DNA of 64,000 nt from Rhea pennata. Its lineage: Eukaryota > Chordata > Aves > Rheiformes > Rheidae. The position numbers were made by a program, and so were the translations under genes. The stretch is from assembly GCF_028389875.1 (NCBI RefSeq), contig NC_084663.1, forward strand, positions 214,172,876-214,236,875, given 5' to 3'. The notes under the pieces were generated by a model, which saw only the letters and a program-made list of their open reading frames with translations, searched no databases and was not told the DNA's origin. Shown here piece after piece: positions 4,723 to 41,080 of this stretch. Position 1 is the stretch's first letter, and each line of letters opens with the position of its first letter.

Positions 4723-4838
4723 TCAGTTCATCCGCAATTTGGTGTCCCGATGATCTGTGGGGGTCACCATCTCATTGGAGTAGCCGTTCTCAGAGCAGAG
4801 CGACAGTTCATCCGTGTTCTCCACACCGTTGTTGATCT
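4723..4838 (-). CDS. GDPD5: GDPD5 last coding exon 15: C-terminal tail and stop
   Basis: It completes Glu557 and encodes residues 558-594: [20 protein letters not shown], then a Thr/Pro/Asp-rich end finishing KLRMN and TGA at 4723-4725. The tail has one cysteine (571, or 576 with the microexon). In GDE2 a tail Cys forms a regulatory disulfide with an N-terminal Cys (C25, on the exon outside this window), reduced by Prdx1. The end differs from the mammalian tail, which is longer and Gly/Ser-rich. Confidence 0.95.
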
Positions 4839-7800
4839 CTGGTGAGAGCAGAGAAGGGGAGATACTGTGAAAACGCCGATAAAAAACAATAAAAGCATTA
4901 AAGAGCCTTGGAGCAGCTCATAGTCTTTCCTCCTGGGCACTGATGGGGAAACTGAGGCACCAAGCAGCTGTGAAATTCCAGTACAGCAGCAGTACGCAGA
5001 ACACGACCTCTAGGACCCTACAGGGATTTTCTCCCAGGCTTTAAACACTACCCTTGGTTTACACCCACTTACACCAAATCTGAACAGAATCTGGTTCCCA
5101 GCAAGATCTCACCTCTATATCTCAAGCCCTGATGATCCCACCAGCATGAGATGCAAAGCAGGACTCCCAAATATGGAACACGCTGTGCCACAGGCTGAAT
5201 TTTCCACCTTTGCCAGAGGATGCAAGGGAGAGCCTTAATCTCCTCAGCCTAGACTGTTATTCCGGAAACGTAGTCACTGGATTCACTGGGAAAAGTGTGC
5301 CTCAACTAATATTTTAATTGTAAATACCAAGCAAAAACTTTCATTTCAGACGTACAAAACTCAAATATCCCTCCCCTACCTCTAAGGGCGTTTTATGTTG
5401 AGAACATCTGGGGGAGGGCTAACTCTGATAGGACTAACAAGGCTTTTCTCGTTCTGAGTTGACTGGATTTGCTCCCAATGTTCACTGCCTCTGGAGAGCA
5501 GACTCAGGCCTGCATTTCACACAATAAGCTCTTTGAAGCGATACTTGTCATTTTGTCCTGCATGTGTGCAGTACAACAAACGCTGATCCCTGTTGGAGGT
5601 CTCTAGCCCCTAATACAAAGAAAGAAAACCAATAAAAAAAAACACCAAGGGGGGGGGATTATATTCACATTTCTTAAAATGCTTCAAAGCTTAATAAACT
5701 AACTTTAATCTTTCAAAGTTGAACAGATTTCTCTCATTGTGCGTGTTTTGGGGAGTTTTTTTTTGTTTGTTTGTTTGTTTGTTTGTTTTTTAAGAGCAGT
5801 GCTGAGATGGGCATGTGCGAAAGTTGCCCTTGTGGAGGGAGCCAACATTCACCAATGCAAATAAAAGTCAGGAGGAGCATGAGGACATCAGGAATCCCTT
5901 GATCTTTAGTACCGCTAACTGCCAAGCCCACCTCCAACTCATCACCACTGTTCATGGTGACTTGCAGTATTTTAGGATGCCACTATTTTACTTTGTTTTA
6001 TAGCTGTTCTCCCCTCTGAATCTCAACCGTACATGAAGCTGTGGGACATCTGAGAACATTGTGTGGCACAGTATGGGAAGTTAAATAGAGGATATCTGAG
6101 CAAATCAGTGTACAGAACCAGTTTGGGATGGGTGAGCCGGCACCAAATCCCTCCCATGGTTCAGTGCAGTGTGGTCAGCCCAGCCACTCCATCCCGTGTG
6201 CAGTAGGAGATACTATGCAGATGGAGATCATCTCCTCCATCAGCAGAGAACAGGGTGGAGCAGATGGACAGAGTATAGGGGTCTATCCCACCAGCTCCTG
6301 CCTTGCCCTGTACATACCTGAGAAGATCAGCTTCTCCTTCATGATCTTGACATCCCTGCTGGACCGGCGCACAGCAGCACTGAGCATGATCTGCTCTGGG
6401 TTGTAAGTCCTGATACTTCCTAGGCGCCACCTGCAAAAGAAGAGAGAGGTGTCACAGGCTGGTCCCCCCCACACACCAACCTCAGGAGCCTCGTCAAAGC
6501 AAGTGGCCACCAGTATGGACACCAGCAAGTCCTAAAGACCCTCATGCCTTCACTCCCTTGCATCTACGCAACCCCACTTGGTGGGTGGATGTTCAGAGAT
6601 GAGGAGGAGTATGTTATCTCAGGGGGGTACAGACAAAAAACAGGTCACCTTTCAGCACCTTGAACTTCCTGATTCCAACAGTGCCAATCCACAAATTTCA
6701 CCAATGACCACAGATGCCAGAAGCAACTTGCATCACATCAGCTACCCAACTGCCCTAAGAGATGACCACAAGTGAACCATACCAACTTTTGAGGATGGAA
6801 AGAGAGAGAGGAACACAGGACTGAGACAAGCAGAAGAAACTATGACCTTCTCTTCTGTGTGACATGCTCTCACTTGTGGGAGGGGAAAGCTCAAAGACAA
6901 ACTAAGGTCTCAAACCTGAGACATGAGGCAGAGACACTGGCACAAGCTGCTCTGAAGGAAAATACAAGCAGTCTCAACACAGGTAACTGTCAAATAAAGT
7001 GTTCTTGAACACAATTTCTGCCAGAGCACTTCCCGCCCAATTGCCGTGGGTGTTTGGTTAAATGTCTTAATCAACTCCTTTCCTCAGGTAGAGAGGATCT
7101 GAGGCTGGCAGGTAGTGAGGGATGTAGCCCATGCTGTCAGATTGGATCCAGAAGCCTGGTAGCTGTTTCTGCCCCAAAACCACACTCTTTAAGCCTCAGT
7201 AGAACTCAGCGTTTGCCAGAAGTTTCCACCACATGAATAATATGAGGAGGCTGATGGGAACTGGCTGCAAGGTTTTTTTAAAAAAAAAAACAGCCAGGCT
7301 TTTTTCCTCCTTACTGAATAAAGAAAATGGTTGCTGTTAGCAATGAGTGGTGGCAGCAGGTTAAAGGAGACTTTGCTTTTAAAGTTCTTTCTCAGCCTGG
7401 GAGCTCCCTCATCACACAGGGACACTTGGCTGTGGATCTGCTTGAAGAGCAAAAGGCAGGCTGCTACAGCAGGGTGGGGAGAGGAAGGCTGGTCGGGCTC
7501 AAAGAGGCCATATCCAAGATCCCTTCACAAAGGGATGCTCTTCAGCTTATGGAGTTTCTGATCTTCTGGCACCATCTAGTGGCTTACACACACATACATA
7601 CAAAAGGAGGTAAGTTTTAGGGGGCAACTGCCCTCTCCTAAATTTCTAACACCTTTCCATCCCTGGTTGCAGATGATTTAAGAAGCCCCAAGCATCTCTG
7701 GACTGGGCTCACAGCATCATGAGGTTCAACAAGGGCAAGTGCAGACTCCTGCACCTAGGCACCAGGACAGGCTGGGGACTGACCTGCTGGAAAGCAGCTC

Positions 7801-10800
7801 TGCAGAGAAGGACCTGGGAGTGTTGGTGGATGACAGATTGACCATGAGCCAGCAATGCGCCCTTCTGGCCAGGAAGGCCAGTGGTCTCCTGGGGTGCATT
7901 GGGAAGAGTGTTGCCAGCAGGTGGAGGGAGGTGATCCTGCCCTTCTACTCAGCCCTGGGGAGGCCTCGTCTCAAGCACCTGCCCTCTGAGGAACGGCTGC
8001 GAGAGCTGGGCCTCTTTAGCCTGGGGAAGAGAAGACTGAGGGGGGATCTTACCAATGTGTACAAGTACCTGAAGGGAGGGTGTCAAGGGGACAGGGACAA
8101 GCTCTTTTCAGTTGTCCCATGTGACAGGACAAGAGGCAATGGGCAGAAATTGAAGCACAGGAAGTTCTGCTTGACTGTGAGGGGGAATTTCTTCCCTGCG
8201 AGAGTGACAGAGCACTGGACCAGGTTGCCCAGAGAGGCTGTGGAGTCTCCTTCTCTGGAGATATTCAAGGCCCACCTGGATGCAACCCTATCTAACATGC
8301 TTTAGGTGACCCTGCTTGAGCAGGGGGGTTGGACTGGATGATCTCCAGAGGTCCCTTCCAACCTCACTGATTCTATGATTCTATGATCAGCCTGACAAAG
8401 TGACATCCGTAGAAGAGGTTCTGCAGTTTTTCCAGGAAAATCTAGCCAGTGCCAACCTCCCACTGTTTCCATCCCTTTCCTAGCTCCCTGTGGTAGCACT
8501 GCACTGTCAGGCTCTGACTGGGGTATGGATGAAGGCTGCTCTGCTACAGAGAAAAGAGGGAATGGGACAGCAAAGCTGCACATTTACAGTCCTACAGACA
8601 GAAGCAACACAGAGGAAGCACAAGGAGGTGGAGAAGTCCTTAAAGCCTAAAAAGATGAAAATAAGAAAATAAGAGCAATTTTGCTTCCATCATTACCTAA
8701 GCAGAGCCACACACTGGCGTGGAAGAAAAGTGTCTGCACTTAGTGTCCTGTGCGGGTAGCTAACCTGCCTGTAGCTCCCACTGCAGTCAGTGGGATTGCA
8801 AGCACCTAGGAGCTTGCAGGATCAGATCCTCTTAAACTATAATCAGGAACAAAATACAATGTTAGAGATGAGTCCTTTCTGTGCCTACAATATCAGCATT
8901 TTCAGCATCAAGCTGGATTGCTTGGCTGGAGGGCATAAGGACTACTTGCCTAGATGTCTCATGGAGGGCATGAGTCTTAAAGAGTGCAGGGACTGAAGGC
9001 TTTTCTCCTCCTGCCAAGGCAAGTGCTCATTGCTCTCTTCTCCCCACCTCACATGGTGGCTGCGGTCGTACCCATACCAGTTAACAGCACGAGAGGCCCA
9101 TGACCCCGCTTACAGGGGTGCAGGAGTGCATTGCTATGACCGAACGAGCTGGGGGGAGTGGGGGAATCCACTCAACTACTCAGACTGATTTGCTTAGTAG
9201 TGTTGTCCTGTGGCCTGTGCACCAGCCTGAGCTGGGACATACTGGCCTCAGGTATCCTGGGAGTCCCCTCTCCCCAAAAATCAGAGAACTCATAACACAG
9301 CCAGCACAGCAGGGTGGCAGGTCAAGCCAAGACTTCTTAGGGATCCAGGAGGGAATTTCACCTCCAGGTAAGAGAAGCAGAGCAGGGCTAGCAGCAGGAA
9401 TGTGTTTGCAAAGGGGAAACATCCAAGGAGCAAAACCAAAACCAGATCAAACTTGCAGGGATAATGCTTACTCTTTTAGCTCCTATGTAGCAGCTACAGG
9501 AAGGAAATCAGGGTCTCAATAACCATCCCTATTTTCAGGGGTATTTTGAAACATCCTCTTAGCTCAAGAGCCACCAGAGCATTTAACAGTGATGCAGCTC
9601 CAGTCAATGCCATATAAAACATTGTCTGCAGTAGTCAGGAGGCTCTGGAGAGCCAGAAAACTTATTTACTATACAATAACACCTTTCCTACCAGCTTGGA
9701 CACCACTGTTATCAGGCACGTGTAAGGACGGCAGTGTACAGAAAAGGCCAGGCCAGAGCAGGGCTCGCTGTGCCAAACAAGGGAGCAGGTCAGTCATGTT
9801 CTGAAACATTGGCAAAGCAGATCAGATGGACGTGGGGTGGGACACACTGAAAGACACAGAGGCAATGACACACATATAGCACACATTATGTCAGGGCGAC
9901 AACCGGGGCCTTAGTTTGGAGGGGAGATGCTAAACAGCATGGAAAGGGAATGGGGTTGGGGAGAAGTCAAGGGTAGGTTGGTGCCACATGAAGAGATGGA
10001 GTTGAGCAAAGAGCCAAGCCAGCCACAACTGCAGAGCATCCTCATCCTGCTACTGCTCTCATCTGAAGCCTGCCCTACTCCTCCATACCTTTCTCCTCTC
10101 CTTACCCATGCACGCAAGTTTGAGAACAAGAGGGAGGCAACAAGGGACCCAAGGAGAGCTCAGCTTGGCTCCATAGCCAGGTTCCATTTTGAAGGTAACG
10201 CAAGGATGCTCTCAGAATGGCCATCTGCAGATTGACATTGGGTGCACGAGTCCAGGGTACCTCGTGGGGCAGGCAATACGTACAGGTGGCAACCCCATCC
10301 CCAGGAAGTGCATGGGCTGAGGGAGAGGGGCAGGTAAGTGCACACACAGAGTAGCTGGTCCTCAGAAGATACAACCTCATTGCTCAAAGCAAAAGGAATG
10401 GAGAAGGTAACACACACACAGTTTGGTCCAAGTACAGAAGTGGTGAAGGCTTTACTGCAGAAAGATGATAGAGCCTCCCTCCGAGGGGATAAAAACTACC
10501 AGGAAGAAAATAGCCAATATAAAGAAAAATCTGGGCTTCGAGTTTAAGGAGCTTCAAATCCAACATCCCAGGCTCACTTGCTTCTTGGGTGCAATGCTAT
10601 TCATTTTCATACTATATTTCCGATTTTGCTGTGGTGTAACCAGGAAGAGGCTCCTGAAAGATTCCCAAGCTCAACCAAGTGCAACAGAGGAAGAGCCAAA
10701 TCCTTCATTCCCTACTGGTTCATTCCCAGGGCTGCACCAAAAAAAAAAAAAAAAAAAAAAAGGATTACATCTCTCTTCAGAAGCCTTGAAGCTTCATCAA

Positions 10801-13800
10801 TGGTAGCACAAAGTAGCACAAAGGCAGTCACAACAGAGAGCCATGCTGCTACTTCAAAAGCACTACAGAAGTCCAAAATAACTATTTTCCACAACAAATA
10901 GAGAGCAGGGTCTGCCCCAGGCTGTTAAATAGGGATTTTTCCACCAAGAGGGAAAGGGAATGAAGCAGAGGGGCACAGAAAAGCCCCAATCTCTAAAATT
11001 TGCTCCTGAAACATGCACCTGGAGAAGGTTAGTACACTATGATAAACTCGCTGCTTTTTCATTGCCCATCTCCCATGTTTTTAACATTTCAGGGAGGACA
11101 GGCAAACTAAGTCTCAAATATCAATACCAACTCCAAATTGGCCAACTTAGAGTAGGCTAGACTCAAAAACCTCTGGTAACCACAGTAAGGAAGGTGATCT
11201 TTTGCCGTGGGATCATTTCTGTGTGGAAAGCACTACATCCACAGGGAATTTCCCAATTACAGCACACTACAGGACATTAGAAAAGGGCAGTTTTAAAAGG
11301 CAGTGTCTTGGGTGAGGGTAACAGAACATCAGATTGCCTTCAAAACACCCACAGGCTTCAGCATCAGGCTCTCATGGTGTTCATTACAGACCATGCAAGT
11401 TCAGACTTTCCTGGTCCCATGTGAAGCCAGATCTTTGAAAGCATCATTAAAAGCTGTGTTCTGCCCTATCCATCTGCAGTGAAGCCTTAGCAAAGGAGGA
11501 GAAAGAGAGAAAGGAAGGTTGAATGAAAAAGAGAAAGGAGGAAAGCACCAGAATTACCTGATCATGTGATAGCTGTGAGATGCCAGAATGCAGCAGAGAG
11601 AGAAAGAGGAGGAACATGCATAACAGTCAGAGCAGTAAGAAAATAAACAAGGCAAAGAGGCAAAAAAGATTGGTTAGAAGTCATCACAGTTGGTATTTTC
11701 CCCTCCAGAGATGTTGCTCGGATCCTGTCATCAGGGCTGAAGCAGAGTAGCATGAGCAATTCCTACCCACCACTACGGAAGAGAGAAAAGCCATGCGTAG
11801 GAGAGAGAACAAGCACATCAAAGCGGTGCCTCTGTTCCCCACCACCACCCCCTTGTCCTTGCGTGGAGGAAGCAGCTCTTGTTTTGCCCCAGAAAAGACT
11901 TGGAAAAAAACAAAACAAAACAACACAACAAGGAAAAAAGAATGACATGGTTAAGGCCAAAGGCCAAGCTCTGTTTCCCAGATCTGAATCATAGCTGCAG
12001 GTAGCTGGGCAATTCTGCTGCGACTGGTTTTTGGTATATCCTCAACAAAACTATCAATATTTCAACATGGTAGGAGAAGCCACTGATAGCAGAGAAATGG
12101 GTCTCTCAAGTGGGATGCACAAGGTAGGATATCTTGGAAGAGTAAGCCTTCTCCTACAAAGAGTCCACTTTGTGGTCATAGTATTTCATCTTCTTCCTTC
12201 TACTGACTTGGGAGTTTCATGGTCAGTTACCCCAGTTGAGTGATCCAAACAAACAACGCTTGGCCCTGCTACTAATCGACATGGCTAGACCTCTCTGAGC
12301 AAAATGCTTTTTCTGTGTGACAGGTCCAAAGGCTGAGCAGGGAGCTCAGTGCTGCAGGTTGATAAACCCTAAGGAAAGCTTGTGGCAGCTTACAACTGTC
12401 CTTGCCTCCATGAGATCTACCCAGAGAGTGGAAGAGAAACTCCACAACAATCAATAATCCTTTCACCCCTTACCCTGCCCCCTCATTCTCTACCCCATCA
12501 AACCACTTCCAAATCACAGAATCATGGAATTATAGTTATTAACAGTTATTAACTGTTTTAACAACAGTTATTACAAAAGCCACGTAGCTGCAACTTCTCT
12601 CTCCAAATATGCATCATTTCACCCTCTTTTGGGACCTGCAGCTCACACTCAACTCTTTGAATCAGTTTGATTTCTTTATCTGTGGTCTCACTGAGTCAGA
12701 TTCAGAAAGCCTGCTTCAGAGGATGACAAGACAGACTCTGCCAATGTCACATCACCTTGGTCTTCAAATTCTGCTCCCAAGAGCAGTAAGAGAGATTCAT
12801 CTCTTCCTCCAGACTCTTCAGTGCATTTCTGTATCTGACAGTGTAAGAAAGAGTCTGAAGGGGGCGGGGGGGAAATCTCTTAGACCAATTGAGGAATTTG
12901 AAGAGGCAGAGAAAGCTTTCAGACACCACAGCTACGATTCGCATTTGGAGTTAAGGCTTCAACTGGCTGCAGTTCAAATCATGAGACTTTTCATTCCATC
13001 TCAGTATTCTGTAGCTCATGTTGTGATATGCATTTTGAGGGTAAGTTGTGTCCTTCAGACCTATAATCACCCGGAAAAAATTCTAATCACATTGCCCATC
13101 TCATTTTGAGGTGGATTTCATTAAATGTTAGGAAATATAATCCAAAAGTTGAGTTTTGAATCTGCGTCTCGCTTCCTTATTCTGTGCTGGAGTCAATGAC
13201 CCGCTGGGCACAGCTCCACCAACCTGGAGCCACGCAGGTCATGAACTCAGAGGGACATAACTAAAATAAAGCCAAAGGCATCACATGAGGTACAACAGAT
13301 CCAAAATTTCACCTGAAACCTGGACATATTGGGGGTGAGCAAGAGCAATAGTCTATTATAACAGGAAAAAGTGTGTTGTTCCCAGGAAATTACCCACCCT
13401 GGAGAAGGAAGGGGATCGCTACAAGCACATGATCTGGGACAACGTGAGAGCAAAATCACTAACTCATAAGGCTGAAGCAGACAACATTGCTACTCCTAAT
13501 GCTAAGGCATTTTGGATATCAATGAAGAAAGAAATTGTAGGTCCCTTGATGTCTCTAGGGCTGTACTTTGTGCATGTCAAAGCAGATGAGATTATAAAGG
13601 TGGGGGGTAGCGGGTGCGTTTCCAGATGACGCATTCTCCTAGGAGGAATCTGCTGCTTCTCTCTCAAAGGAGCACACCTCTCTTCCTGAGCTCATGCTTT
13701 CCTGGAGCGGGTTATTACATTGTCATCACTGACAGCTAAAATGCCTCCTGGGAGAAAAGTCGCATCACTGGGAAGACACCATGGTCTCCTCCAGTATAAT

Positions 13801-14529
13801 TAAGAGGAGGGCAGTTTGGCCAACTCTGCCATTAGGAAGCAGATTTATCACCTACTGATTTATCAATGTCTTAACTTGCCCTGCTCCTACATTTTCTGCT
13901 CCATGCTTATTTTCAGGGATTCTGGACAACTGAGTAAGATTTCCGCCATGTCCTCATTAAATCCTTGTTCTGTTCTCTCTCTTTTTTGGAAAAGTAAGGA
14001 GACTTTCTCCATGCATTAGACTAAGGCCAATATATAGACTAACTGCTTTGATCTGCTAAACCATAATAGATTTGAGTCACCTGAATGTTTCCATTTCATC
14101 TTTCAAATGGAAACAAACTGATTTTAAAAATGTCCAAATACAGAACTTTCTCAAACTACAATGTATCCTTGAAAACTATAGCAGTAGAATTTCAATATTT
14201 CCCCTTCTTCCCTTAAAGCATTTCAATCTTTCTCAATGTCCATTTCCCCAAAGTATTTAGTTTCTCTCCCATACACATTTATGATCAGAGCAAGGAGTCT
14301 ATCACTACTACTTTGAGATCACTCGTTCTTCTCACAGCATGAAGCAGTAGTGACTTCAACCAGTTCAATATCTTATCTCAGAAGTGGAAAGGACATGCCA
14401 CAAATACATAAGAGTTGGGTCATAACAATGCTACTTACTTCTGGAATATAAAAACTCCTACAATTACGATAAAGGAAATGAGATCAGATGTGATCCAGAT
14501 TAGACGGTACTCGTCTGGAGGCTGGAAGA

Positions 14530-14566
<37 letters not shown>

Positions 14567-17500
14567 GCAAACCTTATACCTTCTGGTTTGGACAATCACA
14601 CAGAAACTATATATTGTCAAGTTATCACCTGGGCAGAGAGAAATATCATAAACCTTGTGATTCACATGTGACCTCTGTTCTAATGTTAGCATGTCACCCA
14701 AAATGACTTCATCGGGAAAGACTGCAAACAGGAACAATTTTAAATTCTTCCTCCTTTCACGTGCTCACATTTTCTCAGAGCTTTGTGGGTTGAAAGCTTC
14801 CCATTTCAAACATACCTCTAGGTGAGGTAAGATGCTATTTACAAATCCAAGTCAATGTTACAACAGAAAAAAATATATATACACTCTGCACATGAGACAT
14901 TCAGGCATTTTGAGAGCTTTGCTAGAATAGCACTACTTATTCTGATGTTCATGGTCAAGCTTATTCTCATGTTTGCAGTTGAGCACAGTCCCTCATAGAA
15001 GGGGAGCCCTCTGCACTTTAAGCATGTACTTCCAATTTTTGTCCTTCAATGTTCAGGTAACTCAGTAATTATAAGCTATTCTGGTTCCATTTGCTAGTCT
15101 AAGTGACTATCATCATCGCACCAACCAACAGTCTGAACCTGGCACAGGAGCATGCTGCTTCAGATTCACTTTTGTGTTGTCCAGGAAGGAGAAAGCTGAA
15201 AAATCATGAGATAGTGAATAATAATAGACTCCTGATGGTGCTCAGAGGGCACCTACTCAGGAGAGCCATCGGTGATGGCTAATCAACTTCTGCTTTGCTA
15301 GTCCAAGCCTGAAAAACATGTTCACAATCAGAAAAAAGGTTGCTGATTTCAGAGCCAGGACGGATCCATCACAGCCACCAATACCACACGTACACAAGTA
15401 ACGTCTCATTAAAAAAGTAGAATCCGTAATGCAAGAAGGTGCATTCATGCAAGGGTAGGGTGATACGAGTAAACCAGTTTGAAGCCATCAACTGTGATCT
15501 CCTAACACAGTCATCAACTCCATCTCCTAGCACAGTACAGCTTGGGTGTTTTTCTTGTTATGTATCTCTTTATGGGATCTCAATTTGTACTGTGAAAACA
15601 CACTGCAGAATTAGCAGGGCAATGCTTAAATTAGCCAGTGGTGCTCATGGAGGTTTAATCCTTGTATTTTTTAATCCTTGTATTTTTCCAGCTTAATTAG
15701 AGCAGGATGACATCTGACATGGTGTTGACACTGCATGATGATCTGGCTGTAATGTTACATTTGCTGCATCTATTAAGATCAATAGCCACAAATTGATTGC
15801 ATTCACATTTGCAGGAGAATGCAATCATAACTGTCTTGAATGAAAACTCAGGAGCCTTCCAGCTTAGAACAAAATCTACACATCCAAATTTTGTTCCGTT
15901 CAAGTGCTGGTATTACAAAATGGAAGACTCAAAATAGCAGGATTCTCTGTGGGTCAAAAGTTGTATTTCCCAGGACATATAGGAAGTAATAGGTAGACAC
16001 GATTATGGGTATCTTTTTTTTTTTTACAGTCCTGCAAAAAGCTCAAAGCTAACAGTTTTGGTACTAAATCACGGCTTTATGGGCTGCAGATCTGCAATTG
16101 TAAGGCAGATCAATAGGGGAAAACTGGATTTTTTTCAAAGACGCGCACCCAACGTGCACAGTCGTTAGGCACACCCAGCGAGCAGACTCCTTCCCAGCTC
16201 TGCTGAGAAGCAGCACAGGCCAAACGTACATGTCGTGCAGAGACAACCCATTGCGTTGCCTCACGCACTCCAAGATCGGCACAGGATTTTGTTATTCCTA
16301 TCACCAATCTCACCACATTTCACCAACAGCTTCCCTTTTTCAGACAGGTCTGTTTTAGGGGAGGTTATTTTGTTTGTTACAAACGTTACACAAGCTATGT
16401 CCTGCTCTTGAAATCCTCAGGTTTGCCACCATTCAAACCAAGGATCAGTGCAGCAACCTCCTGTCCTACCTTCAACAGGATAAAAGAAAAAAAAGCAAGC
16501 TGAACTTACAGCTCTGCAGTAGAGTTTTTATTTGGGGAGTACTTTGGTGCAACTATTTTATCATTTCCTGTTTGTCCTGCTCTCTGACACAAATATTTCT
16601 ATTCAGTTCAGAGATCCAAAATGTTAGCCAAATTTTCAGAGAGCTGAGTGCTTTACAACGGACAAGGGGGCTACTTCTGGTCTCTGGCTGCCCTTGTTCA
16701 TCAGTAGAATAGCCAGAGGTAAAATCTGCTCGCTTGGTATAAATGCAAAAGAAAATAAAGGCAAAAAGGTAGTTTTCACAGCCTGCCTGAAAACCAGGTT
16801 AGCTAGTTCACCTGCATGCCTGCTTCTCTTACAACTCAAACAACTACTCCGCAGGTCTGGAAAGGTTTTTTCCCTTGAGAGGAAAGGAGAAAGAGCATGT
16901 GGGCTAAATGGGACATGCAGCGCAGTCTCCAAGGCCCCAAAGCCCTGCATGGGAAGAGACTGAGGCCATCTGAAACAAGAGATCGTGTAGGAGATCTGTT
17001 GCCAGCTCAGTGCACAGACAGAAGGCAAAAAACCCTCAATCCCAGCAACATGTTGAACCCAACCAAACCTTCATGGAGAAATACACTGGCCATATGGCTT
17101 CAGCAGTGATCAGTCACCTTTTCCACCCCTCCGCCACCTCCTCTCCTTCCAGAAGCCAGCAGTGCATTCCCAGGCGTCATGCTTACCATTAGCCAGATGG
17201 GAGAAGGCACCTTGCGAAGGATGTGGGAGCTGTCAGAGGTGACCGACTGGACGCCGGCGCACCACAGGATGGAGAACAGCCAGGGCTCGTTCACAGTGTA
17301 GAGATTCACACTCAGGTTCGCTGTGGCATAGTCCCTGCCGCGAGACAAGCAGATAGAGGGATTAGTGCTGCAGCAAGAAATCAGTCCCGCCATGGTCCAT
17401 CCCAGCGTCCTCATCTCAAAAAAAGGAGAGCTCTTGCCATCAGCCACTGAGATAACACTGCCTAGATTTATTGGGTTTTAATTACATGAGATAGGTTTTT

Positions 17501-20500
17501 AGTAGGACATAGTCGCTTCATAAGTGACAAGAGGACATTGCAATCAAATAGGCTGAACTCAAAAGGTTTCTTCTCCTCTCAGATGCTATCCAACCCAGGC
17601 TACATCCCATTTCCACCACTTCTTCACAAAGGATGGACCCACCACATTTTTTCTAATGACTATGTCATCATGTTGATGCAAGATTAACGTCTGGCTCGGA
17701 TGCCAGTAACACTTCAGAAGCAATTTACTGAATTGAAAACTGACAGACTGCATTTCCAACCTCAGTTCCTACAACCCCCATTCCCTTGCCCTGAGGACAG
17801 TCTCAGGGTTGCTGCTTCCAGTCTTATGGACAATCCCTAGTCTTCTAAGATCACTTTTCAAGAAGCTAAAACTTAAAGCTGGTGTACAGGACCTGCTGGC
17901 AGTAAGCCAAGAACTAATAGTGGACTCCCGCTAACCCACAATTTGCATAATTTGCTCAGTTTCCTTATCTGCAAAGCAGAAACATCACTAATCTGACTCA
18001 CATGAGCAGCACAAAGATTAATACTTGCGAATTAGTATCTGCAAAGCACTTTGAGGAAAAAAGCTCCTGTATAAGACATGAACAACTCAAAGCTTGAAAC
18101 ATGATCAAGCTGCTCTGAGAGTTACAGAATTCTCAAGGGCAGAGTCTGTTGTAGCGATGTTATGTCCAGACACTGATTTTGGGGGCCCGAGAACTGCCTT
18201 ACACCAGGACTTGTTGAACCTGTTCCAGCAGCAGCTTTGCTCTAACGCTTGTGCTGCAGGACTGCTGCGATGTTTCACTGGGGGCTGCACGGCCTTCAGG
18301 GGTCAAGAAATAATCAGGTGGAAGGTCTGATTTTAGCGGCAGCTCAGCAGGGATGAGTAGATAGATGAGAATATTGGTGGATGGTCCTCTCCATGAGGCA
18401 GAGGAAATAGTGGAAAATAGGCAGAAATTATCCTGCAGGTGAAGCACAGACCCGATGTTATGGCTAAGTAACTAGATCAACTGCTGGCACCCGCAGCAAG
18501 ACACCATTGGATCACACTTCCAAATAGCTGTAGGATCAGGTGTTCACTACTCCCATATCCACATGTATAGTAAGACAGCTTCTTTAAAGACATTTCTCCT
18601 CTGCAAACCTGTTTAATTTTCAATTATTTCTTTAGGGAGTAAAGTCAAACTCAAAAAAAATGCAAAAGCTCTGCTAGAGATAATCCACCTTTCCTGAATG
18701 CAAGAGAAGAGGACAGAGCTGCGAGTTAACACATCGCACATTTCAAATACACACTCAGGTGGAAGGAGGAAAACCCATGCTGTGTCAGTCTCAATAAGGA
18801 AGAAACTGCACCAGCTTAAATAGGTGTCAAGGGCAGAATCAAAACTAGTGATTTTTCCACAAAAACGATTTTCTAAAATAAACCCAGACTTTGGACTAAT
18901 CAAAATTCTACAGTAGGTGCTCTGGAGCAGAAGAACAGATGCAAAGGGCAGCTGCAAATGAGGATGAGCACCTCCAACTGCACTTTCAATGTGAGAAGCC
19001 TCAACTTCTTTCAAAGATAACAGTGGGATAAAAAATCATATACAACTCATATTTGTGTTTCAAAAAGGATTATCATGTCCTGAACTAGTACGTAAAGTTA
19101 TTAGAGTCTACTGTGCACTCCTGGGAAGAGCCTGGATTTGGGTTGATGAACAGGCACATCTTTGCACAGCTCAACATTTTAAGCACATTATGTCCATCTA
19201 AAATGATACCTGTGTGCAGACAAGGCAGCTTGGGACAGAATCACAGCATGGTTGAGGTTGGAAGGAACCTCTGGAGATCATCTAGTCCAACCCTCTTCTC
19301 AAGCAGGGCCACCTGGAGCACGTTAGACAAGGTTGCATCCAGGCAGGCCTTGAAGATCTCCACAGAAGGAGACTCCACAACCTCTCTGGGCAACTGGTCC
19401 AGTGCTCTGTCACTCTCACAGCAAAGAAATTCTTCCTCATATTCAGGTGGAACTTCCTGTGCTTCAATTTCTGCCCAGTGCCTCATGTCCTGTTACTGGG
19501 CACCACTGAAAAGAGTCTGCCCCGATCCTCTTGACACCCTCCCTTATGATATTTGTAGACACTGATAAGATCTCCTTCTCAGTCTTCTCCTCTCCAGGCT
19601 AAAGAGGCCCAGATCTTGCAGCTGTTCCTCAGAGGGCAGATGCTCCAGTCCCCTAATCATCATCTTAGCCCTACACCGGACTCTCTCCAGTAGCTCCATG
19701 TCTCTCTTGGACTGGGGAGCCCAGAACTGGACACAGCACTCCAGAGCTGAGTAGAGGGGCAGGATCACCTCCCTCAGCCTGCTGGCAACACTCTTCCTAA
19801 TGCATCTCAGGAGACCATTGGCTTTCTTGGCCACAAGGGCACATTGCTGGCTCACGGTCAATCTGTCATCCACCAACACTCCCAGGTCCTTCTCTGCAGA
19901 GCTGCTTTCCAGTAGATCAACCCCCAACCTGTGCTGGGTCACAGGGTTATTGGACCCTGCACCTGCCTTTGTTGAACTTCATTGGTTCCTCTCTGCCCAA
20001 CTCTCCAGCCTGTTCAGGTCTCTCAAATGCCAACACAGTTTTATGATGTATCAGCCACTCCTATCAGTTTTGTACTGTCAACAAACTTGCTGAGGAGGCA
20101 CTCTGTCCCTTAACATAGGTCATTGAGGAAGAAGCTGGACAAGACTGGACCCAGTCTTGACCCCTGCGGGACACCACTAGCCACAGGCCTCCAACTAGAC
20201 TCTGAATCACTGATCACAACACTGAGCTCTGCATTCAGCCAGTTTTCAATCACCTCACCGTCCACTCATCTAACCTGCACTTCCTGAGCTTGCATAGGAG
20301 AATGTTATGGGAGAGAGTGTCAAAAGCCTTGCTGAAGTTAAAGTAGACAACATCCACTGCTCTCCCCTCAACTACCCAGCCAGTCAGTCCATCAGAGAAT
20401 GAGTACGATTTCCCCTTGGTGAATCCACACTGACTACTCCTGGTCACCTTCTTTCCCTCCACATGCTTAGAGATGACATCCAGAAGGAGCTGTTCTATCA

Positions 20501-23500
20501 CCTTTACAGGGATGGAGGTGAGGCTGACTAGCCTGTAGTTTCCTGGGTCCTCCATTTTGAAGACTGCAGTGATACTGGCTTTCTTCCAGTCCTCAGATAC
20601 CTCTCCTGTTCTCCATGACCTTTCAAAGATGATAGAGAATGGCCTAGCAACAACATTCACCACAGTCCCCTCAGCACTCATGGGTACATTCCGCCAGAGC
20701 CCATGGATTTGTGGATGTCAAGTTTGCCTACATGATCTCTAACTCAACATCCTTGACCAAATGAAAGTCTTCATTTCTCTAGACTTTCTCTCTCGTCTCC
20801 AGGCTCTGGAATTCCTGAGGGCTGCCCTTAGCAGTGAAGGCTGAAGCAAAGAAGGCATTTAGTAACTCTGTCTTCTCTGTATCCTTCATCACCAGGACAC
20901 CCACCCCATTCAGCAGCGGGCCCGCGTTTTCCCTAGTCTTCCTTTTGTTACCAAAGTATTTGAAGAAGCCCTCCTTGTTGTCCTTGACATCCCTTGCCAG
21001 ATTTAATTCCAAATGGGCCTTAGCCTTCCACATAGTGTCCCTGCACACCCTGACAGCGTTCCTATATTCCTCTCAAGTGCCCTGTCCTTTTTTTCCACAT
21101 TCTTTGTACTTTCATCTTCTGTCTGAATTTTGCCAGGAGCTCCATGCTCATCCATGCAGGTCTCCTGCCTCCTTTGCTTGACTTCTTACTGATAGCCACA
21201 ATCACCCCTCCTCAGCTGGAGGGCACTGTGTTCCTCAATTGCAAGTCTTCAGGAGGAGTAAGAGCCATTCTCCTCCTATGAGGAGTGACCAGTTTCCAGC
21301 CTTCTTCTACAGCGTTATGATGTACCATTTCACATGGCACAGAGTCCTCCAGCAACTCCACTGCTGTGGGGGGTTGGGACTGCTGGAGCTGTATGGTCTT
21401 TGAGAAGACCCTATCTCTTGTTCATCTTCTCAAATGCTATGCAGCCTACTGATGTCCTCCTAGAACTCCTTTACCTGATGACACAAGCTCATCAACAACA
21501 GCACACCTTCTGCAGGAGAGCTGACTGTCAGTCCAGGCCTCACAGAGAGGTCCCAAGCACTCCCTGCAGCCTGAGACCTGTAGAGCTCCTATAAGTGGGT
21601 CTGTCTCGGTCAAAGTCTGTGACAGTTGATGCAGCAGCTCCAACAGCTACTGGGGAATGGGCTCTGCAGCATGTCATGACCATGTCTGAGGAAGCATACA
21701 CTACCAGGATTGGAAACAAAGGTGCCTTCTTGCACCCTTTTGTGCAAACTCAATCAGGAAAAAGATGCTGTGAAGCCAGGGTGCAAATGGGGCACAAGAG
21801 ATGCAAAGGGCTGAGGACATCCACCGCTGAGCAAACAGGCAACCACACGGTGTCCAAACGAAGGGCAGTACCTGACATCCTCGTTTGTGACCTTGGTGTA
21901 ACGCAGGTTAAGTTTCACGATTCCTTTCTCTTTCATGCGCTGCGTGTCCAGCTTGAGGCCAGAAGTCTGCTGGAAACCCGGTGCAATCTGTCTGACCAGC
22001 TGCCGCTCTGCGTCTGGCAGCCACATCACCTGCAGACAGAGGGAGATGGAGAAGGTGGCTATTGCAAAGATGGTTCACAAAGCAGGTAACGAGCTGTGTT
22101 TGCGGACACGCCGTTTAGACCAAGTCAGAAGCAAAACCGCATCAGACACTTGGCCTTATTTGTCACACAAATTGCCTTAGAAACACTTAGAATCTCCCAC
22201 ATCTCTATTCAAATGCAACTCAGGATTGCTGGCAAGCAGAGGGGGTTTCTAATGAACAAAAAAGCATCCCAGCTCTGTCTCTAAAGAGAGGGGTTGAGAA
22301 ACAAAGAGGTCAGGCAAAGGGCTCATGAGAAGAGGCACAGCATATCCCTTAAAACCTGTCCTCCTTTATCCAATTCAGGGCACAGAGAGAACTAAGGACA
22401 AGAGGCTCAAATTGACAGTGCAGACAGGACATACTGGAAGAGCCTCCCACAGTCCCATGGTTCAGACCAGTTCAACCTCTTTTTATCAAGGCTACATCTA
22501 TTCCAACCCAGGGCAAGGATTTCTCTGAATTCGTACCATGCTTCAAAAACATGTCAAATCATTTATCATTAACATGCTCGGCCGCCAGATATAAAGCGAA
22601 TGCAGAAGCCAAGCTGGATAGTTTTACAGCTTGTGCCACACAGAGTTTGGGCTCAGCCAGATGATCTCAGTAGTACCATCGGGCATTGCATTTAGCCTGT
22701 GTTTAATAGCTTATCAGTGCTCATTTACCAAGGCAGAGCTGTTTGAACAAGGCAGCGTGCATTTTTAAAGGGGAACCTAGGTCAGAAATTTCATTTCACA
22801 TCATTACATCTACATTTCAACTATTATCTTCCCACCCTCCATTCCACTATGCACTATCCAAGGAGAAGACAGCACAGTTCCCCTAGAGATCCAGCAAAGC
22901 TGGCAACAGCTTATGGAAAACACATTCTGTCACTGCAACCCCAGAGTTAATTGGAAATTGGGTGGCAGTGTCAGTCATCAGAAACACAGATGCAAGTTAA
23001 AAATAGCTCTGTTGCCTCCTGGGCCCATCATTGCACAAGTCAGAGCACTGAATATTCCCACTTTTCTGTGCATATAAACGAAAATAATTGGTACAGATGA
23101 AATGTCTGAGTTGCAAGTGATGTAGTCACTCTACTCGTCAGCCTCCCTAAGCTATTTTGATTCAGCCCAAATTCAAGGGAGACAAGTGAGAGAACCAGAT
23201 TTCCTTCCCAAGACAGACCAAAGAGAGAAGCTTTCCAAGGTCCAACCAGAGTTCCCAAGGATGGGTGTCCTCTTAACACACAGGAGGCGGGACTCTCCCT
23301 CCAGAAAAGTTCACTGCAGAGGGATCATGCTGGGTGAAACTATATACTCTGGGGTCAGAGGACACAGATAACAAGGCTGGCTGGACAGTGCAATAGCTCA
23401 AATGTTTAGCATAGCCCAGCAAGGACAATTTGAGATGGATTGAGAGCCTGGAGAAGGTCTCTGCGGGTTTATGTCTCCTTTTGCTGGAAGCCCCTCTTTT

Positions 23501-26500
23501 CCAGGGCACACATTTCTCTTCCAAACAGAGGCTGGGTCTGGGCTGTGGAGTTTCTTGGCCCAGGGAAAATGATTATTTAAAATTAAGGAGCAGGAAGGGC
23601 ATTCTGCTTTCACACTGCAACCAGCTTCCAGGTCTCAGCCTCTTCCCCTATGTCTGGAGGCTCTTATCAAAGTGCTTAGGTAAGAAAAGGCCTTAGGAGA
23701 TCTCTACTCCAACCTGTCCTCAAAGCAGGGCTACCATTAAGTTCAGACTGGGCTGCTGTGGGTTTTGCCCAGTCAGATCTTGAAAATCTCCAAGGATGGA
23801 GGTCTCACAGCCTCTCTGGACCCCAGACTCAATGCTTTCCTGTCCTCAGAGGGGAAACTTGTTTCCTTATATCCAGCAGGAACTTCTTCTATTTCAATCT
23901 ATGACAATGCATCTCACCCTCATGATATGAACCTCAGTGAAGAGCCTGGATCTGTCTTCTCAGTAACATCTTTGTAGGAATTGGACAGTTGCTCTTAGGT
24001 CTCCTCAAAGCCATCTCTCCTGGCTGAACAGATCCAGCTTCCTTAGCCTCTCCTCACACACCATGCATCCAGCCCCTGACCAGTTTAGTGGCTTCTGCAG
24101 GATTTGCCCCAGTTTATTAATGTCTGTCTTGTGCAGAAGAGCCCCATCCAGATGTGGTCTAAAGAGCACTGAGAAAGGGGATTAATTACTTCTCTCCACT
24201 AGTGTTAATACAGCCCAGGATGCTATTAAGCATCCTTACTGCCAGAGCACGTTGCTGCACTGGAAAAAACATTTCAAGAGGCTTTCAGAGGTCTGTGCTG
24301 ACCCTTGCAGGATGATATTGCCTCTTGGACAACCAGTCTGTGGTATGGTCCTCCCCAGCATGACTTCCTGGCATCAAGCAGCTCTGGACATTTCAAATTA
24401 TCAAGAGCCAAATGGACCAAGTGAGGACGTGGGGAGCACATGAGAACTGCAGTTTTGGAAACAAAGGTTGTTTGGAAACAGCCTGGTGACAGGGTGAAAG
24501 TGACTGGAGAGAGATCCCACAACTTTTAACAGCAGGGAAAGAAGGGCCAAAATAGATACCCCTAGAGAAAAAAAACACCCCCTAGTCTTCACATCCCCAG
24601 CCAAAGGAAGTCTCTGATTCCAAGTGCAGCAGATGCAAGTGGATAGAAATCAGCCCACTTCCTCCTGCTCCTAAAGCCCTTCCCTTTGGCACAATGTTAT
24701 CAACCCATTTTCCCAGTTTCCACAGAACTCACAGCCTGCTGCCGAATTCCTGATGCCAGGATGGTTTCCAGGGTGATGTTGATGTAAGTGCTGTAATAAG
24801 GATGAGCAGGTGGCAGGTCCTGGAAGTTCAAGATGACCGATGCGTTGTCCTTGACCACCTCTAGCATATCTGCCAATTTGCAGACAGACTGGTTGGCAGC
24901 TTCCAAGTAGTCAGACCTTGAGAGAGACCCAGCCGTCCAGAAAGGGTCATTCTGAAAGCAAAGCACATCGCAGTGTTACTGCTGTGGAGCCAGACTGCCC
25001 TGGTACAGGTGAAGCTCCTTTGCCACCCCATCTTGGCAACAGCAGGCAATGCCAACAGCTACACTCAATGTCCCTCTTGCAGCTTGCTGAAGTGCATCAG
25101 CAAGCCAACTCTATGCCTCAGTTTCCCCACCCCAGGGTAGGTGGCAGATCCTTACTGAAAGTAAGGTGTGCTTTGTTGGTCCCCCATTTCCAGGGGGAGA
25201 ACTGAACTAAAGGGTACAGGTCAGAAACAGGCAGTGACCAGAGATAGGAGGAAAGTCTAAAACGAGGAATGGGAGCAAGGAGCAGGAATTAAGAATGTTC
25301 ACATAGAAGATGGGTGAGAAGTAACAGCTTCCCCTGAGGGCTGGCTGAGCTCTTATACAGGGACTAACTCAAGGCATTCAATGCAATTTGCAAAGGTAGT
25401 AAGTCAAAAATATACTCTCCCACACTGTGTATGCTACTGCAAAGGATTCTTAAAGATAGAAATAAACAACAAAAAAACCCCACATCCTAGTTATTGTATA
25501 GGGTCATATCGCTGAAAGTGACCAGAGAGGAACTAGGGGTTTAGAAGAGATCTAGCCACCTCTGCTACCTTAAGGCAACCTCTCGAAGACCAGGGGAACA
25601 GACCTTCTCTTGGAAGCAGTCTGTTTCAACATTTAAATACAAGATCACCCTCCACCTCTGACCTTCCTCCACAAAGTGCTTCAAAGCAGAGGGAATAGGC
25701 AAACATCTGGATTTAAGGATATTCAGGAATTAATTTGTCTCAAGGAGCCAAGAACATCACTCAGAGATGCTCCCCAACTCTTATCTCAGCCCCCTCTTAT
25801 CTGGCAGAAAACAATTCTGTGACATTCCCACTCCTGCAATCACATCTGCAAGCCAGACAAGTTTCTGTGCTGCCCCACATGCAGCTGTGATATATAGACA
25901 ACCCAATCACATCTTCAAACCAGCTCAGGTTGGCACAGCAGTGCAGTCATGGTGGTTCAGGCCACCAGCAAGTAGGCACCCAGGGCACTCCAAGCAGGCA
26001 CACGAAACTCTTATCCAAGCTTGCATCACTCCAGCAACATCTCATCAAGCCATATTCAAGCTAGCTAGCACGAGTGTGCCCATTTCTGCCACCCTGCCTC
26101 CAGGCCATAGTTAATGGTCTCCAGGAGGGTTAAGGCTGCAGGCCAAAGAACAGCTCAGAAAGAAGTCACACCTGCAAGCTGGCTGCCAATTGACAGATGG
26201 ATCAGCCCATCCCACAGCAATTCCTTCCCCCTCAGACTGAGGGATTCATTTCCTGCTCTTTCTTTTTAAAGACAAATTCGTCCAAAATTAAATGAAGGAT
26301 AAAGGAAGAGAAATGCAAATTTAGTAGGAAAAAAGCCACATCCAGCAAAGCCTGGATCCAGCCTACTTCTTTGTTCGACTTCGCATATAGGAGGATGCTC
26401 TAGCACAGGAAATGCGAGATGTTATGCACAAAGCAGTTTGGACACAGTTAGGCTGACAGCACCACTTTGCTCTCCGCAGCCAGGAGAGCTGGAACCTCCT

Positions 26501-29500
26501 CTCACCATCCAGCCTGATGAGGTAAAGAGCATCTGACAGGCAAACGAGCAGACACTTGCCACAGAAAGACGGGTAAAGGTGGCAAGAGGGAAAGCCGAGC
26601 TGCACACTGGAATAATGAATTGCAAAAAGTATCTGAAATCTGCTATTAAATAGCAAGCCACGGCTTGCTCTTAGCATTGTTGCAGTCTCTCATCAAAACA
26701 CAGCAAGGCAGGAAGATGCAGTCACAAGCAGTTGTGTTTACACAGGTAGACTAAGAATCTGGTTGCAGCGAGAACTGTAGAAGGAAGACACACTACATCA
26801 TCTAGAAAAGGGATGGTCATATATAACACTCTTCTGTTCTCTTTATAACCAGGTTCCCCCCTCTCAGGATCTTGAAATTCCAAACAGTGTCAATCAGGCA
26901 TCAAGACCCCCTCTTCCAGGAGGTGGAAGAGGCACAGAAAGATGATGCAATTTCTCCTCAACCCCAAGTTGTAGGGCAGAGAGAGGAACGAGCACCTTGA
27001 ATCCCAACCAGGGCTCGCTCTTGGAGGCTATGAGCAGCATCTCAATGATGCACATTAACACATGGCAGCGACCTTGGAAAACTACCTGCACAACAATAAA
27101 TACTTAGTATTCAAATTTCCCAACAGCACAGGATGAGGAAAAGGAGGAACATGCAGCTTACAAGCTCGGGGAATGTTCCAGTTCTGACTTCTCATCTGCT
27201 GGGCCATTGCTCCAAACCCCTGGGCAGCAGTGCCCGAAAGAGGCCGTGAATGAAAACAGTAGAGTGTCAGGCTCTGAGGCTTGCAACACAGACAAGCAGA
27301 CCAGCACCCTAAAAGTGATTGCATGAACAGAGAGGCCCCTGACTACTTTTATTCACTGAGTGGAAAGATTTCTCTCTTTGAAAAGCTGACATTAGCTACC
27401 AAGATGCTCCAAACAGCAAATAAAAGGGCAAATTAAATTGAGTAGAGGCCAAAAGCTTGGTTTATAGAGGCCTGGTCTAGTCACATTTCACTTCACTGAG
27501 GACACAGATCTGCATTCATCCACCCCAGGGCAGGTTCAGGTTTGAACTTTCTGCCTGTGGCCTTGACACTAAGACACCATCACCATTGGCCACACGCACC
27601 TTTAGAAACCATTCTCCAGCATTGAGCTTTTCCAGGTCAGTCCAGTTGAACGTGGAGGCGTGCTCGTAGGCCAGCTCTGGAAACACTTCCTCCACATTAG
27701 TTGTTCTCCTGAGTGTCTTGTCATGCATCAGAAATGGCACTCCATCGTAGCTGCAAAGAGAGTCACAGTCCCCATTACCTGGTGGAGATGAGCAAACAGA
27801 TACACAATACTAGAGAAGGACACTCTCCATCTTCTCCCACGGCTTTGTGGGACCACATCAAAATCATTGTCAAAATCTCAACCAACTTAGCATACCTTGT
27901 TGAAACTTAAGACCTTTTCTCCCTGAGTGCATCTCATTTCAACTGATCTCAAGAACACAATGCACCCCCCAAAGGAAAGTCTCTTAGATATCTCCTAGAT
28001 GTTTACCTTCATTCAAATGCTGACATAAATGAGAAACACACAATAACCAAAGCTTATTGCAATGTTTACAGCTCCCAGTAACATCAGAGGTTTTCCATAC
28101 CTTGTACTCATACACATACACACAGAGAAATTATTCTCACACTGTAAATAGTAGATAACGGGTAACACATTCAAAGGCTAATGTTCACAGGCTTTCAACA
28201 AGGGACTCTAAGCTTTCAAAATTGCTTTGGAATTGCCTTTCCCAATTGAAATTTGTTTTCAGGAGATAGTCATGCTCACACAAGTAGCTGAGTTCACCCA
28301 TCTTAAAGAATACTCATTTCTCAGCTGAAACTAAATAACCAAGTGCATATGCCCTGTGGTTTTTAAGTCACCTGGATATTACAAAACAGTGGTTTCAGGA
28401 AACCTAAAAAGCTTTTCAAATTTTATTCCAGATCCATTATCTGTAGCTGGATCAGTGGCAACACTGCAGAGGACGATGATGATTTCTATCAAGCCTGGAG
28501 AACATGGAGTTATTCACGCTCAAAAAAAAAAAAAAATCAAAACAAACTCAGTACAGCCAGCATGGCCAAGAGCAGGAGATTATAGTGACATTTTCTAAAG
28601 CAAAAGGACAGAACCAACCTGAGCTAGCTGGTTAAAAAGTAGTGCTTCCTGTCCACCCCTCCCTGCCAGCTTCACATGGAGGGACTGGGAAGCTCAACCC
28701 CTGTAAGCAGCCCACCTTAGCACTGGGAGACTAAAATAAGGTCCAAAAAGGAGATCGGGTTAAAACTAAAACTCATAAAGCCAATTAGGAGACAATCCAA
28801 AGCATTCACCTCAGAGCAAGAGGAAGACCAAAAAGACCAATTTTGAGTGATGAAGCAAACACTGTCCTAGTTTTGCTATTGCTTGCAGAAGGCCCTTATC
28901 ACAAAGGTCACTTGCATCTTATTTTCTATTTCTAGCATGAATTATATGCTCAGTAACTTCTCCCCTCCTCTCCACTCAAAGTAATGCTGACACAGCAACA
29001 CCATACTCAGCAGCAAGCACACCAAGCTGCTGCAATGAGAAGGGTTTCTAATAAATACAGTTAAAAAAAATGCCAAGCGACTGCAGAATTAAGTGTGGAC
29101 TGTTTAAAAAAGATAGGAGCTCAAGTCTTAACATCTCTTAGCAGAGCATCATCAGATACTGCTAAGCTTTAACCACAGAGCAGAAATCCTATGAGGCTTT
29201 TGACATTCACTCCCTGCTGCCTAATCCTTCCCCTTATGCAAGTAACATGGAAAGCACAGTCCAGGGCTAACCACAATGTATCAGCAGGCTCAGGTTTGAA
29301 AAAGGAATTCAGAGAGGAAAAAAAGGAGATGCGGGAGGAGGCACAAGATGGGACTGCAGAGGATGCTGCTTGAAGCAAAGACGTTTTGAATGCACTAGCG
29401 CTGGCTTTATAACCAGGGCCACCCACTTTAGAGTGCATACTGGGTACAACAGTTTGCCCCAGTGAGAAGGGACCCATCCATGGCTGGCACCCACATGGAG

Positions 29501-32500
29501 GAGGAACAAGTAGGAAGTGTGAAGACATCCAAGGAGAAGTGATGGAGGGAGCCTGCCATGACTCAAGCACAAAGAACATCTTTCAATGGGATGAGGACAA
29601 CTCCTCAGGGCTGTGCTGCAAATCTTTGCCAAAACTGCTGACAGCTGTATTGATGGCTCTGCATTTAGTCTGAACTGAAGGTCTTTGTAGTCTCATTTTT
29701 ATTTTATTTATTTTATTTTAAGTCTCTTTAGGAGACCTAGGTCTCCTAAAGATGGATCCAGATAATTTGGCCATCAAGGGTGTCACTTCAGCTGTAGGAT
29801 GTCCCTTCAGGATGGCTGATGAGTAGCAACCTAGGAAGCTCTAGCAGCTTTTCCAGCTCTGTTCCCCCAAAAAGGCCGCCCTGCCTTTTCCCTTCTCCAA
29901 GGCTAAGGGAAACAACCAGTTCAGCTTACCTCGTGAGCTGAGGCTTCATTTGGTAGATGGGCAGTCAAGATGTTGTCCTTTTACAACAGTTAATGAACTA
30001 GTTTTCGAAGGAAGAAGAATTGTATCACAAATATCCCAATTCATCCTTCATCCTTCCACAATGACCTTCCATTCCCAGGGGGAAGAATTTCCATTAGTTT
30101 TTACATCATTTGCTCTCAAACAATTATGGAAAGAAAAAAAGCACTCTGATGATTAAACTGCTGAAGTCCACCTTTCACCAAGCAGAAACATCTTTTAATC
30201 AATGTCAGCCTCAAAAGAGGTCAAGAATAAATAAATAAATAAATGAAACAAAACAGCTATGAGACTTCCTTATATTAATATCTGCGACTAAAACATTGTC
30301 TCAAGCTCAGCCCCTAATCCCTGCTAAATTAGGCAGTCACAATTATCCTAGATAATCTGGAAAGGGTCACTGACTACTCAGTGCAGGCAGCTGAGACCTA
30401 AGAGGGACCCACCAAAGTAGAGAGCAGGATGTAGCTTCTAGCCTGGTAACAATCACCAGCGCCGTCTTCCTTCTCCAGGAGATGTCTCACAAGACATACT
30501 AAAGCAACATCTTGCCCTGCTCCTGTGATACGCCCTTATTCCTGCTTTCAATTGCATATTTTGTCCTTGTTCACTCCTAGCCACAGTGGCTTGTTTATAT
30601 AAGTGAGGCGGACCTCAACTTTTGCTGACCCACAGTCAACAACCTAAAGTAAGTACCACCAAATGGGTAACATCCAGAGTCTTGATGGGAACAAGGGAAC
30701 AACCTACCCTCAAGTTAAAGACAGAGGGTTCACCAAGGCAGGGCTTTGCCATCCCCTTCATGCCACTTCTGCTCTTGTACCTCTATATAACACATGCAGA
30801 AATACAGCTCAGGAAAGAAGCAAGAATATTTATAAAGATCACATTCCTGGAGCGAAGGATGATTCTTGAAATGACTCTTCTGGGATCCTCTCTAAACTGG
30901 CCTTCTCAACTCAACATTTACCTGCAAGGGTTGACACTTTGGCAAAAGTATCACCAGATTCTTTCTGCTGTCAGTATTACTGTCACGTGAGGGAGGGAAA
31001 GATGAGAATTAGCAGCACTCCTGTGTCATTAATTTTTTGCGACAGTTTTACTTCCTTGTTGTGCAGGTCATCAGGCAGGTTTTTACCAGTGTTGCAATTT
31101 TGGGATCTCTACTCTCTGCATATAGGGCTTCCCAGCAGCAGTCACATTTAAGTGATTCAGTCCCTTCCCTTGGAATACAGCTGCCAGCAGATTTCAAGTC
31201 AGGCTAGAAACCAAGTGCTTTGTTTCATGCAACAAAGTCAGTCCTAGGAAAGCGGACCCATAAATGAAGATTAGTTTAATGACAAAAGAATCCAGGTTTT
31301 ATCCATCTGGACAATTTTACCTTTAGTCATCATCTCAGCTGAACAATTAGTAACATTTACCCTGTCTAACATGCTCCAGAAGACCCTGCTGAGCAGGGAG
31401 GTTGGACTAGATGATCTCCAGAGGTCCCTTCCAACCTTACTGATTCTATGATTCTATGATCTGTGTACTACAAATGGAGGCAGCTGAGGAGTTACTGGAC
31501 ACATTCTCCATGAGAGCCCTTTTCAATGGGAAAGGGTGGTTATGACCAGAAAGACACCCCAAAAAAGAGAGTCAGGAATATAGGTTAGGCCATCCACAAA
31601 GAAAGTTTCTTTGCTAAAGCAAACCAGTGCACTGACTTACCTCAGTACAACATCAGCTTGGACTCCATATGTCTTCTGCTCCACTGCCTTCTGGAAGGAC
31701 ATCAGAGTGTTTTCTGGTGCCAACTATGTGGAAAAAAAATAAAAAAATAAAAGCAGGAAAAGATTAGTAGCAAGTGGAAAGGTTTACAAAGCTGTTCCAG
31801 CTTGAATGATGCTGGGAGGAAGGATTAGAGAGATTAGAGAGCCAAAACAATCTTGTTTTGAAGATTACGTGCTGGCCAGTTACACTGGGGTACCAATTTT
31901 CCAGAAAAAATTGTATCTCATTGAAACCTGAAGATGACCAATGGATCTGAACCCACTGATGGTATTTCACAGCAAGATAAAGCAGTGCAGGACTGTGATA
32001 GTCTGTGATGCTAGACACCCAACTAGCCCCAGCCTGCTGCAATAGCATTATGTTAGCAATATAGCACTATATCATTAATCGTACTATTAATAGTACTTTA
32101 ATAAACTATGAGATGTCCACCAACGTGGTTCCCAAACAGTGGCTTGCTGAGGATCCTTAGACAGTGACTGTTAATACAGTGCCAGTTGTCTATTCACAGG
32201 TTTTATCTGGAGCTACCTAAAACACCTTAGTAACTCTTCACTCTCCTACTTCTCTATACAAACAGCAGTTATAATGCCATTATAGAGACACAAAACAGTC
32301 CATGAACCAGGATATCATCCATAACATGGAAAAAAAACAAACAAAAAAAGCAATAACTAGATCACAGGTTCTGTAACACACATTTTATTTCCACATCTAC
32401 TCATTCACTGAAGTGGTGTCTTGCTAAGTGGGGGGAAACAATTGCTTTCTCTTAATTACAAATGTTCCAGTTAGTCTTAACAGCAGTAAATAACAATAAT

Positions 32501-41043: not shown

Positions 41044-41080
<37 letters not shown>

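Follow-up and report, generated by a model that had tools for sequence, protein, structure and literature searches.

The intron between coding exons 13 and 14 of GDPD5 (GDE2) in Rhea pennata contains a 15 nt segment, CTATCACATGATCAG (11572..11558, minus strand), within the 64,000 nt stretch analysed here, referred to as the window. The question is whether this segment is a genuine exon, whether its use is regulated, and what its inclusion would do to the protein. It is directly preceded by CTCTCTCTGCTGCATTCTGGCATCTCACAG and directly followed by GTAATTCTGG. Exon 13 (14439..14521, minus strand), which encodes the putative TM6, ends in TTCCAGAA at 14439 in phase 2, and exon 14 (6318..6430, minus strand), which encodes the juxtamembrane tail through MKEKLIF, starts with GTGGCGCC at 6430. 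In conceptual translation, inclusion of the segment keeps the reading frame and, together with the flanking exon bases, exchanges a single lysine (K519) for NYHMIR, which occupies residues 519–524 of a 599 aa protein; the form without it has 594 aa. At 15 nt, the segment is within the 3–27 nt given for microexons in the available text of PMC8187152.

Coding exons 2–15 of GDPD5 (4723..57917, minus strand) were placed by exon joining, and they join without an internal stop whether the segment is in or out. The last of them (4723..4838, minus strand) carries the tail cysteine and the stop codon. The window corresponds to G000:C1:214172876-214236875 of the assembly searched (1.27 Gb), and the first coding exon was located in the same assembly about 55 kb past the window end, at C1:214292148-214292032, where it encodes exactly 39 residues (MVKHQ...DDTTK) with C15, C18, and C25. 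The complete model has these three cysteines, C340, C467, and the tail cysteine, and its best matches are named GDPD5, as expected of the GDPD5/GDE2 orthologue.

The first-pass annotation had proposed a 15 nt GDPD5 microexon here from the letters alone, with TGC motifs and a CT-rich tract upstream and with an exchange of one lysine for NYHMIR. Its place, length, and phase are borne out by the sequence and by homologous proteins, the exchange follows from the conceptual joining of exon 13, the segment, and exon 14, and the upstream motifs are present. The end of the upstream intron (11573..11616, minus strand) contains the CT-rich tract, TGCTGC at 11595-11590, and the acceptor CATCTCACAG; the donor is GTAATT (11552..11557, minus strand). 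Scored with simple approximate position weight matrices, the donor is ordinary (8.7, inside the 5.0–12.1 range of the 13 constitutive donors) and the acceptor is the lowest of 15, its own included (6.1; the next are E10 at 6.4 and E5 at 6.5). The TGCTGC is at −23 to −18 from the segment, placing UGC near the acceptor. Six TGC occur in the 100 nt upstream; 2.0 % of sliding 100 nt pieces of the window minus strand attain this number, and the stretch upstream of one constitutive exon, E10, has the same number.

Judged by splice-site score alone, the microexon is near chance. When both ends had to be as good and the frame preserved over 3–27 nt, the sense introns (51,527 bp) yielded one candidate, the segment itself, and the opposite strand (64,000 bp), which served as control, also yielded one; on summed score, five candidates at least as good were found in the sense introns vs six on the opposite strand. 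The identity of the segment is decided by homologous proteins and by published RNA-seq. Splice-site score alone would lead one to expect roughly one such candidate in each window, which favours a chance splice-like intronic motif that is never used. Against this, 61 of the 107 inserts among the matches listed, from independent records, read NYHMIR letter for letter at the same residue boundary, and a 15 nt GDPD5 microexon is reported from human brain RNA-seq (PMC8187152, available text). A chance origin has a negligible probability and is refuted in general by homology.

Two protein searches, from which the best 120 of 683 and the best 120 of 828 matches were taken, gave 197 distinct vertebrate GDPD5 records. 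Strict anchors left 50 of the 197 unassigned; a looser anchor rule classified all but two. Among these matches, 107 have the insert, 88 have the single lysine, and two are likely annotation artefacts. The proportion of 107 to 88 should not be read as an inclusion rate, because the first query held the insert and only the best-ranked matches were taken. In the 107 inserts listed, the residues are N in 105, Y in 106, H in 107, then M, L, I, or T, followed by I in 106 and R in 107. In the mammal records that have the insert, it reads NYHLIR at the same boundary, for example in gorilla (P0106). Insert-bearing records come from birds, turtles, a gavial, lizards, snakes, frogs, mammals, bowfin, bichir, many teleosts, and a shark (Stegostoma), with further examples in P0058 (crocodile) and P0115 (probably gar). 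Conservation in other birds, a check that had been asked for, is therefore found at the protein level in birds and far beyond, from shark to gorilla.

Inspection of the record names by eye finds both forms in at least 17 species, as expected of an alternatively used neural microexon. For example, Gopherus evgoodei has proteins of 599 and 594 aa; pairs of these lengths occur in many reptiles and equal the two conceptual forms in the rhea. One of the two Struthio records has the microexon and one lacks it. The isoform pairs P0009/P0027, P0001/P0006, P0084/P0119, and P0135/P0191, from reptiles, ostrich, frog, and fishes, have the same five-residue difference at the same place, although the records of such pairs are mostly computed and some pairs also differ elsewhere in the protein. 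A third form was considered in P0018 (Steatornis) and P0048 (Nyctibius), in which KPAPDIPLLSCR stands before WRLGS. This looks like annotated intron read-through; most likely, exon 14 has been extended by annotation into the intron just upstream.

A brain-specific GDPD5 microexon is already known. The available text of a 2021 paper (Nat Genet; PMC8187152), which covers six mammals and chicken, gives a brain-specific 15 nt microexon of GDPD5 at GRCh37 11:75150385-75150399 from human RNA-seq (Extended Data Fig. 5 legend) and mentions GDPD5 to illustrate microexons whose developmental patterns in brain are highly conserved. The human microexon and the bird segment share gene and length; the insert is NYHLIR in the mammal records and NYHMIR in the rhea, and the human microexon is brain-specific by RNA-seq, whereas the bird one is known here from genome sequence. 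In the literature searched, PMC8187152 was the sole publication with GDPD5 together with microexon or micro-exon, and none was found with GDE2 together with microexon. PMC11329687 was rejected as a report of a GDPD5 exon; in the part of that paper available, exon inclusion concerns TDP-43 cryptic exons.

It might also be argued that this is a constitutive small exon, not regulated, that gene models often fail to include. Small exons are often missed, the GDPD5 microexon is one that annotation can easily miss or drop, and some of the 88 records without it could be missed annotations. Against this, paired isoforms are found in at least 17 species, inclusion in human RNA-seq is brain-specific (PMC8187152, available text), and human functional work is numbered without the insert (PMC7033719, available text). 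A constitutive exon is therefore very improbable. The 15 nt segment is almost certainly a conserved, alternatively used neural microexon of GDPD5.

Neural microexons of the SRRM4 type have UGC close upstream of the acceptor. The known class of SRRM3/SRRM4-dependent microexons shares with the GDPD5 microexon a length of 3–27 nt, preservation of the frame, conservation, upstream UGC, and, in human, brain specificity; the class is defined by SRRM3/4 dependence, whereas the GDPD5 microexon is likened to it on its UGC and CT-rich context only. Skipping is probably the default for the microexon, with inclusion in brain, and given its weak acceptor and UGC motif, inclusion would most likely occur through a UGC-dependent neural microexon factor, SRRM3/4. 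As far as the available texts go, none of the literature that combines GDPD5 and SRRM4 appears to concern this microexon.

Published work on GDE2 was also compared with the two forms. GDE2 cleaves GPI-anchored proteins and thereby promotes the differentiation of motor neurons; its tail has a part in both redox gating and recycling (available text of PMC4432624 and PMC7033719). In the available part of PMC4432624, chick GDE2 constructs carry the mutations C15.18S, C25S, C340S, C467S, and C25.576S, of which C25.576S and C25S (panels f, g) are termed hyperactive; a Prdx1-sensitive disulfide between the N- and C-terminal tails of GDE2 is cited through the same paper. In the GDPD5 model from the rhea genome, C15, C18, C25, C340, and C467 coincide with the chick mutant numbers, an agreement that speaks against any shift in numbering ahead of residue 467. 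The tail cysteine in exon 15 is residue 571 without the microexon and residue 576 with it, confirming the move on inclusion that the first-pass annotation had claimed. Its further suggestion, that the form studied in chick includes the microexon, is upheld by the numbering of C25.576S in the text available, which would need the five extra residues.

The same numbering is seen in other vertebrates. Native N-termini are present in 81 included and 69 skipped records of the 197 listed. A cysteine at exactly 340 and at exactly 467 is found in 25 included and 36 skipped records; the remainder, among them many fish and amphibian records with a one-residue shift, did not enter this count. In the 25 included records, C576 is present in 20 and there is no cysteine beyond 560 in five. 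In the 36 skipped records, C571 is present in 29, none is present beyond 560 in six, and one has cysteines at 570 and 575. The included primate records P0106 and P0099 also have C340, C467, and C576, and the conclusion on the chick form is therefore independent of the species that supplied the clone. From the residue numbers, the form used in the chick redox work is most likely the one with the microexon included.

The human tail study points the other way. The available text of PMC7033719 gives the tail as 518–605, with a printed motif at 549–558 that includes Leu-553. Among the native-N-terminus records listed, the motif begins at 549 or 550 in 62 of the 69 skipped records, and in 70 of the 81 included ones its start is at 554 or 555; in gorilla P0106, which is included and has 610 aa, it is at 554. 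By this comparison of positions, the human tail-study constructs most likely have the microexon skipped. The chick redox mutants therefore most likely concern one splice form and the human tail-trafficking map the other, and separate studies seem to have used two forms that differ exactly at the start of the tail. The words splicing, isoform, and microexon are absent from the available main texts of PMC4432624 and PMC7033719, and that different splice forms lie beneath these two bodies of GDE2 work was not seen in print in the literature searched.

As to the effect on the protein, NYHMIR would replace Lys519 at the cytosolic end of TM6, where the helix leaves the membrane. AlphaFold2 models of a same-species tortoise pair have the TM6 helix at 493–530 with the insert vs 493–524 without it, at low confidence: mean pLDDT is 66.5 with and 71.2 without, and block means are 62 at 511–520 in both models and below 50 from 525 (with) and from 521 (without). 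The PDB search matched 21 sequences, of which none is named GDE2 or GDPD5, and the best stretches all lie inside residues 186–315 of the 560-residue query. Since these matches are confined to the GDPD domain, they give no template for the juxtamembrane site. On inclusion, the cytosolic end of the TM6 helix would most likely be about 1.4 turns longer, and the whole tail, with the MKEKLI endocytosis motif and the redox cysteine, would most likely be shifted by five residues relative to the membrane.

The available text of PMC7033719 reports that juxtamembrane residues 530–550 are needed for expression and exocytosis and that 551–570 hold trafficking information. This map makes the insertion point a sensitive one, and does not itself imply an effect of the insert. 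Human constructs whose numbering lacks the insert are trafficked and cleave their substrate (PMC7033719, available text), which argues that the insert is dispensable for basic activity. Inclusion would likely tune trafficking and the Prdx1-sensitive disulfide that links the N- and C-terminal tails, and would not act as an on/off switch. That the microexon has such a tuning effect is judged to be somewhat probable.

The alternative that survives best accepts the same identity and takes the insert as a near-neutral five-residue spacer, conserved mainly so as not to disturb TM6 and with little effect on GDE2. One insert position accepts M, L, I, or T, both forms occur throughout the jawed vertebrates in the records listed, and removal of microexons in zebrafish had minimal impact, according to the title of PMC12626420, as would be expected of a spacer. 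Yet at five of the six insert positions the same residue stands in at least 105 of the 107 records listed, a constancy that suggests a specific role and not length alone. For the functional step alone, a neutral spacer has an appreciable, if minority, chance of being correct.

The full proposal is offered tentatively and is possible rather than probable: the microexon would be a neuron-specific tuner of the GDE2 redox and trafficking gate, in which the longer TM6 and shifted tail may alter bonding between C25 and the tail cysteine and the presentation of MKEKLI, with the included form as the basis of the Prdx1 gate (chick) and the skipped form as that of the human tail-trafficking map. If tuning of this kind is true, the chick gate and the human map should not simply be merged. 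That the two bodies of work would rest on different splice forms gives a direct experiment, in which the two forms are compared side by side to see whether the neural form is gated differently.

Two paralogues of GDPD5 are present in the same genome, at C1:212875031-212879855, 1.3 Mb away, and at C11:3965293-3968998 (L010, L011). The former, at C1:212.88 Mb, we take from its position to be GDPD4-like. Pieces resembling exon 13 were seen by eye in both; a simple BLOSUM scan of 9.5 kb and 8 kb of sequence gave no tail exon that aligns with that of GDPD5. Elsewhere in the rhea gene, the exon 13 acceptor region (14522-14561, minus strand) contains a run of about 30 T, which is possibly length-variable and could influence exon 13 splicing. 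At the exon 5 donor (46570), ostrich and chicken records P0001 and P0005 read through (...ISLQVSC...) and are missing exon 6; the window shows read-through letters of a similar kind at this donor, and these records therefore look mis-annotated. The GDPD5 introns also contain CR1 LINE-like pieces at 20717-19244 and at about 8390-7700 (minus strand), recognised by eye from reverse transcriptase remnants and a CR1-type 3′ end.
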